From NCBI RefSeq assembly GCF_001548115.1, contig NZ_AP014821.1, forward strand, positions 3,103,262-3,167,261: 64,000 nucleotides of DNA. The letters run 5' to 3'. The DNA comes from Geminocystis sp. NIES-3709. Its GTDB lineage: Bacteria > Cyanobacteriota > Cyanobacteriia > Cyanobacteriales > Cyanobacteriaceae. Positions within the stretch are counted from its first letter, which is position 1; the number at the start of each line of letters is the position of its first letter. The notes under the pieces were generated by a model. It had not been told where the DNA came from. It did no database searches and was given only the letters and a program-made list of their open reading frames with translations. Of the stretch, positions 18,527 to 24,813 are shown in pieces. The translations under genes and the position numbers were made by a program.

Positions 18527-19684
18527 TTAACTTACATTGATTAATTCACCCTTATTCTTAAATTTTTTACTCCAATTAATTACTAAACCTCCTTCATTTA
18601 ATAAGTAATTTACTGTTTTTTCTAGCTGTTCTTTATTTTCAAAGTTTCTATAAGCTATATATTCCTTTGCCGAATGCCACACTAATTCTATTAAGTTATA
18701 ATCTGGACTATATACCGGTAAATATTCTAGTCTTATATTCGGTAGATTTTTTTCTATTTTTTCTACTATTTCCTTTTTTTTATGGAAACTTGCGTTGTCT
18801 AATATTATGATTATTTTCGGACCACATTCTTTAAAATCTTTTTCATCATTTCCCTTACTTACCCATTCATTTTTTATTTCTTCCCATAACTTTTTTAATT
18901 GTTCACAAAACGTTTCTGAATCACCTTTTTTTATTACAAAACATCTTCTTTTTTTATCCGAATATCTTATTCCTCCCATGATATTTACTCTTCCTCTTCT
19001 TCTTTCTCCCTTCACCTTTTTTCTTTTTCCTTCTTTCGTCCATGTTTTTCTTCTTATCACCCTTAAACTAAAACCACATTCATGAGGGGCTGTGTGGCGA
19101 ATTTAGTTCGCCACTTTAAACGCCCCATCCCAAAACCATACTTGAACTAACTCAGGATTCTCTTTACCTATTTCTATGTAATGTTCTAATTTTTCTTTAA
19201 ATGCTTTTCTTTGTTCTTGATTTTGTTTGTCTTCTAAACTATATTTTCCCCAAATATAACTATACTTTTTTCTTTTTAATATCCTCACTACTTGTGATTT
19301 GCTTAATTTAATTCCTGTCTCTTTTTCCAAATGTTCTGATAATCTTTGCCCCGTCCATCGACCAAAATCATATCCAAAATCTTCAGGATTTTTATCAACT
19401 ACTTCTAATAATCTTTCAATATATTTATCCGTTGCTTTTGTTTGGTTTCCTTTTCTTCTTTTATCTTGCAATGAATCTACATTATTAGGATTACCATGAA
19501 CTGCCCAGTAAGCCACCGTTTTGGGGGAACAACCCAAAAAAACTGCTATTTCTTGATAATTTTTACCATCATTCTCTAATAAAAATATTAAAATTCTTTC
19601 CCTGACTTCCGATCTCTTTTCTATTTTTAAAGCATCTTGTAGATACTTTCTTTCTTCCTCTGACAAAAAATTTTTAGAAGGCAT
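18527..19684 (-). pseudogene. IS630 transposase (type 2, copy B), split by a 45-bp insert
   Basis: The frame from 19684 runs through the HTH domain to VQVWFWDGAFKVAN and then meets a TAA inside the insert. The remaining frame resumes as ECGFSLR and carries the later catalytic residues (IIIILDNASFH, PDYNLIELVWH). The insert is 15 codons long, so the original frame continues after it, but it separates the catalytic D from the following E of the WDECGF motif and brings a stop. The enzyme should be inactive. Confidence 0.9.
19084..19128. repeat. 45-bp GC-rich palindromic insert inside the transposase gene
   Basis: Absent from copy A at the same place. It is preceded by CAT and itself ends in CAT, so it may be a 42-bp unit with a 3-bp duplication. 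It folds as nested stems: GTGGCGAA/TTCGCCAC around a TTTAG loop, with an outer GGGGC/GCCCC pair. It is much more GC-rich than the surroundings and looks like a REP-type or small mobile palindrome. Confidence 0.85.
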
Positions 19685-19933: not shown

Positions 19934-21118
19934 ATGGAAACCATCGCTTATTTACAGTGTCCAACAGGTATTGCAGGAGATATGTTTTTAGGAGCTTTAG
20001 TTTCGATCGATGTACCCTTAGAATATATTGATCATGCCTTGAAAAGTCTTAATTTTGATGAAGAATATACCTTAAGACAGGAAACAGTACAAAGACAAGG
20101 ACAAACCGCTACAAAAATTCATGTTAACTTAAATCATCATCGCCACCACCATCATCGACATTTACCTGAGATTAAAAACCTCATCAATAAAGGTAATTTA
20201 CCCCCTCAAGTCAAAGAAAATAGTATCGCTATTTTTCAACAACTAGCCATCGCAGAAGGAAAAGTACACGGTATTTCACCAGAAAAAGTTCACTTTCACG
20301 AAGTCGGTGCGACAGACGCTATTGTGGATATTGTCGGTACTTGTTTAGGATTAGATTATCTAAACATTCAAAAATTATACTGCTCTGCTTTACCCACAGG
20401 AGGAGGTACAATAAAAGCTGATCATGGTATTTTACCCGTTCCCGTTCCTGCGGTATTGCAATTATGGCAAACTAGACAAATCCCTATTTATAGTAATGGC
20501 ATTAATAAGGAATTAGTTACTCCCACAGGTGCCGCCATTGTCACCACTTTAGCGGAAGATTTTGGACAACCTCCCTCAATGAAGTTAAAGAAAATGGGTT
20601 TTGGTGCGGGGAGTCAAGATTTAGCTATCCCAAATATTTTAAGGCTGTGGTTAGGGGAAAAAGAAACTGTTGATAACTTAGAAACCATCGCAGTTTTAGA
20701 AACCCAGATAGATGATACTAACCCTCAAATTTTCGGTTATTTGTTGGAAGAATTGCTAAAGATTGGTGCAAAGGATGTATTTACTCAACCTGTCTCCATG
20801 AAAAAAAGTCGTCTAGGAATTTTATTAACAGTAATCTGTGACGTGGAAAAAATTGATCAATGTGAAATGCTTATCTTTAGAGAAACTACTACGATCGGCA
20901 TTCGTCGTCAAATTCAACAAAGGAAAGCCTTAGAAAGAGAAATCAAGACTATCACAACAAAATATGGCGATATTCGAGTAAAAATAGCTAAAAATGCTTC
21001 AGAAATCCTTAATATTCAAACTGAGTATGAAGATTGCTCGATCGTTGCGCGCAAGCATAACATTCCTTTACACATCATCTGTGCAGAAGTCAAAAAAATT
21101 GCCAATGACATAAATTAA
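19934..21118 (+). CDS. larC: LarC-type nickel-pincer cofactor biosynthesis protein (DUF111)
   Basis: 394 residues. The N-terminal LQCPTGIAGDMFLGAL matches the family start, followed by a His-rich loop at residues 68-76 (HHRHHHHRH), FHEVGATDAIVDIVG and LPVPVPAVLQLW. The C-terminal half (VLETQIDDTNPQIFGYLLE, FRETTTIGIRRQ) is the domain that binds CTP/Mn in LarC. In Lactobacillus the enzyme inserts nickel into the pyridinium dithiocarboxylate cofactor, and its gene needs a frameshift; here it is one frame. No larA, larB or larE is in the window, so the cofactor role here is inferred. Confidence 0.88.
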   Translation: METIAYLQCPTGIAGDMFLGALVSIDVPLEYIDHALKSLNFDEEYTLRQETVQRQGQTATKIHVNLNHHRHHHHRHLPEIKNLINKGNLPPQVKENSIAIFQQLAIAEGKVHGISPEKVHFHEVGATDAIVDIVGTCLGLDYLNIQKLYCSALPTGGGTIKADHGILPVPVPAVLQLWQTRQIPIYSNGINKELVTPTGAAIVTTLAEDFGQPPSMKLKKMGFGAGSQDLAIPNILRLWLGEKETVDNLETIAVLETQIDDTNPQIFGYLLEELLKIGAKDVFTQPVSMKKSRLGILLTVICDVEKIDQCEMLIFRETTTIGIRRQIQQRKALEREIKTITTKYGDIRVKIAKNASEILNIQTEYEDCSIVARKHNIPLHIICAEVKKIANDIN

Positions 21119-21291: not shown

Positions 21292-23823
21292 ATGATGGAA
21301 TTTATTGTTATCGATACCGAAGGAAGTGACACCCTCACAGAAATAGCCATTATCAACCAAGACGGGAAGCTAGTTTATGAAGCATTTGTCAAAACAAGAG
21401 GCAATAAAACAAATAGACTAAATCACAAATCCTTAACAGAAATCATCAAAGACTTACAAAATATCCTACCCAACCAGACTATTATCTGTCATAATTCCCA
21501 ACACGATCGTACCATTCTTGATAAAAGTTTCCGCAAATGCCGACAACAATTGCCTTCAACAACATTTATTTGTACCCTTGAATTAGCACAAGAAAAACAT
21601 CCCAACCTTCACAGTTATCAACTAGGCAACCTCTGCCGTAAATTTTTCCTACAAGTGGACAACCTTTATTTTCACACAGTTCAAGCCCATCGCGCTCGTT
21701 ATGATGCACAATTTACCTTACAATTATACTTATACTTAACTGTTCAGTCCCGAATAGAAAAGAAAACACCGATGACAGTCGAACAAATTGTGACAAAACC
21801 CTCTGTAAAAAATCCCTTTAGTAGCAGTCGTGTGGATGATCCCTATCAAGATCACTTAGACTTTGAACATATATACAAAAGCCAATTCTATCACCTGAAA
21901 TCCCTAGTGGAAGAAATCAAGCAAGATAGGGAAAACCAACAGAGTCGAGGCTCATTAATACTGGGAGAAGCAGGAAGCGGAAAAACTCACCTAATGATGC
22001 GGTTAGCTAAAGCCACATTAAAAACCAATCGCCTCTTATATGTGCGTCAACCCAATAATGCTAACTCCGTGATGCACCACATTTACTCAAGGATATTAGA
22101 AAGTTTCGCCCAAAAAGTTGACATCGAAGGCACTCAACGTACCCAATTAGACTTACTTTTAGCCCATGTTTTCACTAATATTTTAACATTAATTCAGCAG
22201 GAAGATAAAACCCAAAAATTAGAGCAAATAATAAAACTTTTACAAAATGATAGCCTAATTTTATACGATCGTTTAGGAGCAGAAAATAGTCAAAAAAATC
22301 GAGAGAATTGGAAATATATAGAAACCAAAATAACTCAATGGTGGGAGAATAATTATTCCGCTAGTGGTTACGCCCCGAATATTCTTAAAGGTATCATCAA
22401 ATATTGTAGCTATAGAGATCCTAAAACGAAAGATAAAGTAAGGAGATGGTTAACAGGCAATGAATTAGACAGTCAAATTTGTGAAGAAATAGACTTAAAT
22501 AATTGGCAAGAAGATAATCTTAGTAAAGATGATTTTGCCTTAGAAGGAATCCGTTTATTTGGGCAATTATCCACCCTTGATGAACCTTTAATTATTATCT
22601 TTGATCAATTAGAATATCTTATTCATAAACCCGACATTCTCATCAGTTTCGGTAATGCTTTAAGAGAAATTATAACCCATGTTCCTCATTCGCTAATTGT
22701 AGTTAATCTTTTTCCCGATCGATGGCAAAGTTTTCAAGGATATTTTGATGATTCTACTATTGATAGATTATCGATTAATAAACTAAATTTACAAACTCCT
22801 TCAGCAGATGAATTAAGAACAATGTTGGCAATGAAATGCGATCGAGTAGAGACAACTTTAGAGGAGTTATTTAAACCAGAAGATTTACAAGTAATTTTAA
22901 GACAATCTTCCATAAGAAAAGTCATTAATAAAGCAGGAGACTACTATCATTATCGAGTTTTAAACTTACCCTTACCCGAAGAATTACCGTCTAAAAACCT
23001 TACTTCTGTAGAAGAAAGATTAGTTAGTTTAGAAAATGCTTTAAGGCAAATTGCCCATATTTGCACACCCTTATTAAGTGATAATAACCTAGATAAATTA
23101 TTAACAGAAACTCCAAATACTGTTACTGTAGATACTGAAGTACAGGAAGAACAATCCCAATTTAACTTTGAGCTTGAAACTGTAGAAGAAAGCAAAGCAA
23201 AAGTTAATAATCGTCAAGAAAAATCTTCTAAAAAAGAAATACTATCATTGGTAGAAAAAACTATTTTAAATTACCTAGAAGAAAATGAAGGTTTAATTGC
23301 TGACAAATATCATAATGCTTACATTATTACTGATGATGATGAGTATGGAAAATTAGTGACAATTATGGAGGCATTTAAAAGCTATGATTCAAAGATAGAA
23401 TTAGATCATTTGGCTTTAGGTAAAAGAGTAATTCCTCAACATTTATTAATTACCAGAAATAAAATAAAATTAGTTGTTGGTTTTTTAAATATCGGAGGTA
23501 GTGCTTTTACTTCCAGAATTAAAAATTTTAATGAATTAATTATCTCATATCCTAATATCAAGTTTTATTTATTGAGAGATAAACAAGAAGGAGAGATTAC
23601 TGGTAAAGGTGGGAAACTCGAAATTGAAAAATTAAATTATACAGAAAATGGATCGTTTTTAATAGTAGATAAAGAAATAAGAGTTATCTTTGAATTAATT
23701 TATAAAATGATAGTAGCAATTAATCAAAATGATTTAGAAGTTAGCGTAGCGGATGCCATTAATGTAGTTTTAAATAGGTATGCAAATCACTGGTTAATTA
23801 AGGAGATTTTTGCTACAAATTAA
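21292..23823 (+). CDS. DEDDh 3'-5' exonuclease fused to a P-loop ATPase and an unassigned C-terminal domain
   Basis: 843 residues, no signal or membrane segment. Residues 1-150 form a complete DnaQ/RNase T-type exonuclease: D8 and E10 (VIDTEGS), D72 (CHNSQHD), H133 and D138 (HRARYDAQFT). Residues about 190-560 form an AAA+/STAND-like ATPase with Walker A GEAGSGKT (225-232) and Walker B LIIIFDQ (D438). A coiled linker follows (about 560-650), then a C-terminal domain (about 650-843, YHNAYIITDDDEYGKLV, LVVGFLNIGGSAFTSR) that I do not recognise. It stands alone between larC and tlyA. An ATP-gated nuclease in DNA repair or anti-phage defence is the best guess; the function is not shown. Confidence 0.8.
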   Translation: MMEFIVIDTEGSDTLTEIAIINQDGKLVYEAFVKTRGNKTNRLNHKSLTEIIKDLQNILPNQTIICHNSQHDRTILDKSFRKCRQQLPSTTFICTLELAQEKHPNLHSYQLGNLCRKFFLQVDNLYFHTVQAHRARYDAQFTLQLYLYLTVQSRIEKKTPMTVEQIVTKPSVKNPFSSSRVDDPYQDHLDFEHIYKSQFYHLKSLVEEIKQDRENQQSRGSLILGEAGSGKTHLMMRLAKATLKTNRLLYVRQPNNANSVMHHIYSRILESFAQKVDIEGTQRTQLDLLLAHVFTNILTLIQQEDKTQKLEQIIKLLQNDSLILYDRLGAENSQKNRENWKYIETKITQWWENNYSASGYAPNILKGIIKYCSYRDPKTKDKVRRWLTGNELDSQICEEIDLNNWQEDNLSKDDFALEGIRLFGQLSTLDEPLIIIFDQLEYLIHKPDILISFGNALREIITHVPHSLIVVNLFPDRWQSFQGYFDDSTIDRLSINKLNLQTPSADELRTMLAMKCDRVETTLEELFKPEDLQVILRQSSIRKVINKAGDYYHYRVLNLPLPEELPSKNLTSVEERLVSLENALRQIAHICTPLLSDNNLDKLLTETPNTVTVDTEVQEEQSQFNFELETVEESKAKVNNRQEKSSKKEILSLVEKTILNYLEENEGLIADKYHNAYIITDDDEYGKLVTIMEAFKSYDSKIELDHLALGKRVIPQHLLITRNKIKLVVGFLNIGGSAFTSRIKNFNELIISYPNIKFYLLRDKQEGEITGKGGKLEIEKLNYTENGSFLIVDKEIRVIFELIYKMIVAINQNDLEVSVADAINVVLNRYANHWLIKEIFATN

Positions 23824-23997: not shown

Positions 23998-24813
23998 ATG
24001 CCTAAAGAACGAATAGATGTACTCTTGACAGATAAGCAATTATGTGATACAAGATCGATCGCTCAAAAATTGATTCGTGCAGGAAAAGTAAGGGTAAAAG
24101 AACAAATTATTGATAAACCCGGCACTTTAATTGACATTGATAGCATAATTGAAGTGGAGCAAGAGCCTCCTTTTGTTTCCAGGGGGGGAGAAAAGTTAGT
24201 TAAAGCATTACAGGAGTTTAACATCACTGTAGAGGGGAGAATTTGTCTTGATGGGGGTATTTCGACAGGAGGATTTACTGATTGCCTTTTGCAACAAGGT
24301 GCCAGTAAAGTTTATGGAGTAGATGTGGGATATGGACAAGTAGCATGGAAATTACGACAAGACGATCGAGTGATATTATTAGAAAGGACAAATTTTAGAC
24401 ATCTTACGATCGAAAAACTATACAAGAATGAGAAAAAAGCCGATTTAGGAGTAATGGACTTATCATTTATCTCCCTTACTAAAGTTTTAGGTAAACTATG
24501 GGAATTATTAGCCGAACCAAGGGATATTATATTATTAGTAAAACCGCAGTTTGAAGTTGGTAAGGATAAAGTCGGGAAAAATGGAGTAGTGAGGGATTTC
24601 CGTTTACAAGCCTCTGCCATTTACGAAGTATTAACAGAAGCGATGACATTAGGATGGCAATATCAAAGTTTAACATGGTCACCGATAACTGGACCTGCAG
24701 GAAATATTGAATATCTCCTGTGGTTAAATCAATTAGGTGACAATAATTCTCCTTGTTTAACGATGATAGAACAATTAACACGTCAAAGTCAGGAAAAAAT
24801 TAATCATAAATGA
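23998..24813 (+). CDS. tlyA: TlyA-family rRNA (cytidine-2'-O)-methyltransferase
   Basis: 271 residues with an S4 RNA-binding domain at the N-terminus (ERIDVLLTDKQLCDTRSIAQ to about residue 60) and an FtsJ-like SAM-dependent methyltransferase domain: LDGGISTGGFTDCLLQQGA (SAM loop), DLGVMDLSFISLTKVL and LLVKPQFEVGKDKVGK. TlyA enzymes 2'-O-methylate rRNA; older databases call the family hemolysin A. The ATG at 23998 is well placed for the S4 domain. The gene is likely monocistronic or followed by the small frame at 24851. Confidence 0.9.
   Translation: MPKERIDVLLTDKQLCDTRSIAQKLIRAGKVRVKEQIIDKPGTLIDIDSIIEVEQEPPFVSRGGEKLVKALQEFNITVEGRICLDGGISTGGFTDCLLQQGASKVYGVDVGYGQVAWKLRQDDRVILLERTNFRHLTIEKLYKNEKKADLGVMDLSFISLTKVLGKLWELLAEPRDIILLVKPQFEVGKDKVGKNGVVRDFRLQASAIYEVLTEAMTLGWQYQSLTWSPITGPAGNIEYLLWLNQLGDNNSPCLTMIEQLTRQSQEKINHK

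Follow-up and report, generated by a model that had tools for sequence, protein, structure and literature searches.

The gene at positions 21292-23823 (+) of the window, by which we mean the whole 64,000-nucleotide stretch of Geminocystis sp. NIES-3709 DNA analysed here, probably encodes a horizontally mobile, single-gene anti-invader nuclease that would be a variant of the ORC/CDC6 capture kind (probability roughly 0.6). We infer DNA capture, loading and defence by its protein. The gene is a single intact open reading frame of 843 residues with an ATG start and no internal stop codon, in which an exonuclease, an ATPase and a C-terminal domain are fused. The original prediction, made from the letters alone, had read it as one such 843-residue chain with a P-loop ATPase in the middle and had seen no neighbour that explains it; the three-part architecture proved right and so, for the window, did the remark on neighbours, the flanking genes being larC and tlyA.

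We placed a DEDDh 3'-5' exonuclease domain at residues 2-146 (21295-21729, +), where the Pfam model RNase_T matched the window protein with 35.8 bits, above its cut-off of 24, and where profile searches recovered PolC and DnaQ structures. Applying the DEDDh motif definition as we take it to be (D, E, D and H-x4-D), we found D8, E10, D72, H133 and D138, the last two with the H-x4-D spacing. An ORC/Cdc6-STAND-like AAA+ ATPase follows at approximately residues 190-560 (21859-22971, +); it was matched by AAA_16 (31.5 bits, marginally under the cut-off of 32.6), by nSTAND_NTPase5 (29 bits, below the cut-off of 34) and by the PADLOC model mad8, and aligned by hhalign with stand-alone ATPases. The domain carries the Walker A motif GEAGSGKT at residues 225-232 (21964-21987, +), a Walker B strand, IIIFDQLE, at residues 434-441 (22591-22614, +), and two arginines, R492 (22765-22767, +) and R542 (22915-22917, +), which we take as candidates for the arginine finger and the sensor-2 arginine, respectively, from the motifs of ORC/Cdc6 proteins and by position only.

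Conservation was read from a 40-member family alignment, built from 43 loci after removal of L093, whose frame is split, L098, which duplicates the plasmid of L079, and L043, a fragment at a contig edge. The five DEDDh residues were invariant (40/40), as were G225, G228, G230 and K231 of Walker A, D438 of Walker B, R492 and R542 (40/40 each), while position 232 was T in 39/40 members and S in 1/40, and N472 was present in 36/40. To judge from the sequence, the nuclease and ATPase motifs of the focal protein are intact. The catalytic set and both Walker motifs had been named in the original prediction and were borne out; the loss of DEDD or Walker residues in most homologs, which it had set against itself, was seen in 0/40. 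The AAA_16 and nSTAND_NTPase5 models matched all 40 members at E<=0.01, and the PADLOC models DEDDh, PDC-S48 and mad8 matched 40, 39 and 39 of them (best E for mad8, 4e-7). Compared with its homolog in G004, a genome of the same genus, the focal gene had a dN/dS of 0.246, with 0.125 for larC and 0.091 for tlyA in the same pair; it evolves under purifying selection, with a constraint weaker than that on larC and tlyA. The homolog at L093 is broken into two frames (377 + 461 aa), which may be decay or an assembly error.

Behind the ATPase lies a variable linker (approximately residues 563-650; 22978-23241, +), with no 90%-conserved column between residues 563 and 660, and then the C-terminal domain (residues 655-843; 23254-23820, +), for which the original prediction had no name. 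An AF2 model of this domain built from three sequences (pLDDT 78, pTM 0.75) gave the order helix-helix-strand-strand-strand-helix-strand-helix-strand-helices. Foldseek against the PDB ranked EcoT38I first (E 6e-3, probability 0.98), followed by Mus81-Eme1, with BstEII sixth; nothing reached E<=0.001, TM scores were low, and the list was mixed, with GTPases, APOBECs and other folds beside the restriction nucleases. The best viral match in the fold search was a PD-(D/E)XK protein (E 9.4e-4). P715 is invariant in the family and is followed by E or D in 34/40 members and by Q in the window protein, and at the position where we would place E-x-K the family carries F731 (39/40) and L732 (38/40), with no E-x-K. 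With modest confidence, we propose that the domain has an inactive restriction-nuclease (PD-(D/E)XK-like) fold; confidence is modest because a profile of the domain alone matched that of the stand-alone relatives weakly (probability 14.8%, E 0.0018). The structure prediction and fold search proposed with the original prediction thus gave a weak restriction-nuclease hint here, while for the ATPase the model was too poor to place the helix-extension-helix insert after strand 2 or the C-terminal helical bundle of ORC/Cdc6-like ATPases: the full-length AF2 model, also from three sequences, had a pLDDT of 44 and fell short of 50 in two stretches, residues 60-362 and 420-478, and a search with it returned 0 matches at E<=0.001.

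By profile, the nearest relatives of the focal protein were ATPases of 609-718 residues without an exonuclease (the A3 family). Hhalign aligned the two families with 99.5% probability (E 2e-22) over 528 columns, the ATPase running on into the C-terminal domain, and the A3 member L016 matched Pfam BrxC_BrxD at 19.5 bits, below the cut-off of 22.2. In the nine of ten A3 loci read more widely (L122-L130), a protein of ~270-330 residues stood beside the ATPase on the same strand (9/9 loci), and a gene of cluster c2 (mostly 650-930 residues; split in L130) followed the ATPase (8/9 loci). From motifs seen by eye, we take the c2 protein to combine an RNase D-like DEDDy exonuclease, which L123 lacks, with a Cas4/RecB-like nuclease that has E-Y-K and with the P-loop of an FtsK; the small protein is presumably wHTH-like, a label likewise given from motifs. 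This operon (for example L122:2154-7692) is conserved in cyanobacteria, with tandem copies of the ATPase in L123, L124 and L125. Within the 386-genome sample, the stand-alone ATPase was found in 46 genomes and a c2 match in 74, many of the latter to the exonuclease part only, and c2, whole or in part, lay within 5 kb of the ATPase in at least 37 of the 46; scoring covered the two or three top-ranking candidates of each genome, which makes these counts lower bounds. The stand-alone ATPase was also present in 10/29 genomes with the focal gene, and the two are therefore not mutually exclusive. Like the focal gene in its aligned ATPase and the region behind it, the stand-alone operon differs in being multi-gene, in holding its DEDDy exonuclease (by eye) within the nuclease/FtsK protein, and in an ATPase protein that extends ~110 residues past the aligned part.

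On sequence grounds, the focal ATPase is better placed with the ORC/Cdc6/BrxC-D/Mad8-like AAA+ group than among generic signalling ATPases. The original prediction had pictured a nuclease joined to a signalling ATPase in a defence design; defence survives as the best-supported reading, at the level of inference, and the signalling type gave way to this group. The mad8 matches and the BrxC_BrxD match of L016 liken the focal protein to the BrxC/BrxD ATPases of BREX and the Mad8 ATPase of MADS, but no BREX or MADS genes were seen beside the focal gene, and PF10923 gave no match in the window genome, the identical search being positive in 2/14 control genomes. To our knowledge, no BrxC/BrxD or Mad8 protein carries a fused exonuclease. 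The likeness to PDC-S48 and to the CRISPR-associated DEDDh proteins of PADLOC is one of the exonuclease domain only, and in the window protein the DEDDh and PDC-S48 matches span that region only (residues 32-167).

The stand-alone ATPase operon fits the ORC/CDC6 HerA/FtsK capture class as the main text of PMC10853773 describes it: mobile neighbourhoods of an ORC/CDC6 ATPase, an inactive and an active REase, HerA/FtsK and a wHTH. In some of them HerA/FtsK carries a fused 3'-5' exonuclease, and the neighbourhoods are proposed as counter-invader systems that intercept invader DNA. That main text uses 'exonuclease' once, for the domain fused to HerA/FtsK, and 'DEDD' 0 times. PMC12839542 repeats the capture-system description and places BrxD among ORC-Cdc6 ATPases. 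A DEDDh-ORC ATPase fusion was not named in the titles and abstract openings that the literature searches listed. Set against the class as those sources outline it, the focal gene is alike in its ORC/CDC6-like ATPase core, a possible inactive REase behind it, an association with a 3'-5' exonuclease and a mobile, patchy spread; it is unlike in that its exonuclease is of the DEDDh type and fused to the N-terminus of the ATPase, and in that the analysis turned up neither HerA/FtsK nor an active REase nor a C-terminal wHTH alongside it. Nothing in the window genome matched the FtsK-bearing protein of the operon at E<=1e-40, and at the 43 focal loci its exonuclease part alone was matched, in L034 only; an annotated DUF87 (HerA-like) gene lies near the copy in L094. 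Among the genes around it in the window no active REase occurred (Pfam: larC, tlyA and a transposase in two ORFs; by eye: icd, pntB and pntA). A C-terminal wHTH is absent from the protein, which has 29 residues after D814 as against 117 beyond the aligned part in L016. Because of the DEDDh exonuclease on the ATPase, and because HerA/FtsK, an active REase and a terminal wHTH were not found, we did not file the focal family as a member of the capture systems. At L034, an exonuclease of 301 residues that shares 45-51% identity with the exonuclease part of c2 lies 123 bases upstream of the focal homolog; it was rejected as a partner and given no weight because similar separate proteins of ~300 residues are common in the 386-genome sample of cyanobacteria and chance may have placed it there.

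Comparison of the focal gene with its flanks and relatives indicates that it is horizontally acquired and mobile. The focal protein was 82% identical to that of G004, and likewise 82% to G008 and 81% to G011, which belong to other genera, as against 56, 55 and 43% in three other genomes of the same genus; LarC was 70% identical in G008 and 72-76% in the three same-genus genomes with divergent focal copies. Between the window and G004, dS was 0.40 for the focal gene and 0.835 and 0.888 for larC and tlyA, so the focal copies diverged later than the flanking genes. The GC content of the focal gene (0.322) is lower than that of larC (0.366) and tlyA (0.363). In the window, larC (nickel insertion; 19934-21118, +) lies upstream and tlyA (S4-FtsJ; 23998-24813, +) downstream, and together they mark the insertion site: in G004 they are adjacent, with a spacer of 550 bases, stop codon included, from which the focal gene is absent. 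G004 carries its focal copy ~370 kb from there, with a MoxR-like fragment and a VWA gene on the upstream side of that copy.

The G004 spacer (L100) holds, by eye, a small RelE/ParE-like toxin-antitoxin pair, and for this reason the larC-tlyA site may be an exchange point for small accessory genes. A similar antitoxin-like ORF of 72 aa lies directly upstream of the focal copy in L039. In G001, G006 and G008, larC and tlyA share a contig and are far apart, and in the remaining relatives checked they are on separate contigs or one is absent. Upstream of larC in the window, a transposase in two ORFs (18527-19684, -; DDE_3 and winged-helix HTH parts), which we take to be of the IS630 type, has a GC content below that of the neighbouring genes. 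No strong pair of terminal repeats was found around the focal gene, and transposon ends are thus not supported.

Across the phylum, the focal family was found in 29 of 386 genomes, the window genome counted (E<=1e-12), and no neighbour cluster was common to more than 7 of the 43 loci, so that there is no fixed operon partner. On these two counts we rejected a housekeeping role as the main reading, and the near-universal presence in a fixed housekeeping context that would have spoken against the original prediction did not appear. Among 60 matches listed from 42 genomes, the window's own included, 14 genomes carried the focal family; the other matches were stand-alone ATPases, frames of ~1,140-1,213 aa and some shorter frames or fragments. 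The long frames were rejected as family members, L002, which was read entire, being Mfd by eye. Nine of 72,556 plasmid records matched, all cyanobacterial, seven of them covering >=80% of the query. A contig scan that reaches close relatives only returned 2 loci, and a viral origin was set aside after no relatives turned up among phage records or in a viral-contig scan.

Defence-type genes were adjacent or nearby in all six plasmid loci read out of the seven near-full-length records (6/6, with no matched plasmid control). Upstream of the copy on the Calothrix NIES-22 plasmid (L097) lie DISARM DrmA, DrmB and DrmC and a HEC-05-like gene; in Tolypothrix PCC 7910 (L094), annotated DUF87 (HerA-like) and NurA genes are upstream; HEC-05/DUF262 genes are immediately downstream in Nostoc C057 and HK-01 (L095, L096); and a Type IIG restriction-methylation enzyme is downstream on the Synechococcus elongatus IITB3 plasmid (L099). 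On the plasmid of S. elongatus PCC 11801 (L098), a ThsB-type TIR gene and then an annotated macro-domain gene are downstream. This TIR and macro-domain arrangement (L098:12541-13955, on a 33-kb plasmid) resembles a Thoeris-type pair.

Chromosomal copies, the window's included, mostly had housekeeping flanks by eye, although a Type I methyltransferase gene adjoins the copy in L077 on the opposite strand. At E<=1e-10, 159 PADLOC families were tallied for 112 chromosomal neighbours from 19 loci (113 listed, with L081:14053-19995 omitted) versus 70 for a control set of 112 proteins, taken from 19 regions in those genomes; we did not take this as enrichment because the tally counts models, of which 25 are listed, and those at the head of the list are generic for neighbours and controls alike. 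The neighbourhood survey suggested with the original prediction therefore found defence genes around the plasmid copies, still without that control, and mostly housekeeping genes around the chromosomal ones. In three related loci (L037, L039 and L041), a MoxR-like gene (by eye; a fragment in L037) and a DUF2201 VWA/metallopeptidase gene are upstream. A search of the window genome, run without a positive control, gave no match to the DUF2201 VWA protein, so this partner is seemingly not required.

For the anti-invader reading, we counted the identity of the active site (40/40), the patchy distribution (29/386), the transfer and site swap, the plasmid neighbours, the exonuclease link of the ATPase relatives and the account in the main text of PMC10853773; against it, the housekeeping chromosomal flanks, the plasmid association without a matched control, the indecisive PADLOC scan, the weak fold match of the C-terminal domain and the Q after P715. 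In the mechanism we propose, the ATPase would assemble on DNA in the manner of ORC/Cdc6 proteins, with R492 as arginine finger, and the C-terminal domain would recognise or anchor foreign DNA. ATP-driven loading or activation would then hand over the 3' ends of the invader, whether plasmid, phage or conjugative DNA, to the fused DEDDh exonuclease for degradation. The protein would then be an ORC/CDC6 capture system condensed to one chain, with the exonuclease on the ATPase instead of on the translocase. A bolder version, to which we give somewhat less than even odds, makes it a complete one-gene immune machine in which an ORC-like ring loads its own proofreading-type exonuclease on the 3' ends of foreign DNA, the DNA being recognised by the inactive restriction-enzyme fold.

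The same architecture could serve an accessory DNA-repair enzyme whose ATPase would bring the exonuclease to DNA ends that are broken or damaged, there to resect or trim 3' ends, and which would spread through a benefit under stress. The exonuclease has its best matches among PolC, DnaQ and DinG replication and repair proteins, and the housekeeping surroundings of the chromosomal copies would suit such a role; the patchy distribution, the discordance between gene and host, the defence-type neighbours in 6/6 plasmid loci and the want of a fixed partner among the neighbour clusters speak against it, and we consider repair unlikely. The seven near-full-length plasmid copies, and the ParA genes that adjoin the focal copy in two Synechococcus elongatus plasmids, would fit a plasmid-borne competition or maintenance factor that eliminates competing plasmids or conjugating DNA and so favours the element carrying it, a reading that overlaps with the anti-invader one. 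Many copies sit on large chromosomal contigs, however, and in the four other plasmid loci the retrieved sequence contained no partition gene; we consider this role distinctly unlikely.

A STAND-like abortive-infection sensor, in which a triggered ATPase would have the DEDDh domain degrade host or viral RNA, would account for the weak nSTAND and NACHT matches of the family, for a weak match to the PADLOC Avs2 model (13/40 members) and for the RNase T and ISG20 relatives that the exonuclease profile reaches at weak E-values. Pfam recognised no STAND-type repeat or sensor region in the window protein, and the nearest profile relatives are the stand-alone ATPases beside FtsK and nuclease genes; we regard a sensor of this kind as very unlikely.

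The ORC/CDC6 capture systems predicted so far consist of several genes and are difficult to study by experiment. On the bolder version of the anti-invader reading, the focal gene would represent the multi-gene HerA/FtsK capture systems in minimal, related form, a single-gene traveller of ~2.5 kb seen here only in cyanobacteria. Such a relative would make an ORC-like ATPase's choice of foreign DNA, and the way it drives a nuclease, testable with one protein and point mutants, and it would add a defence candidate to the cyanobacteria, including the plasmids of Synechococcus elongatus.
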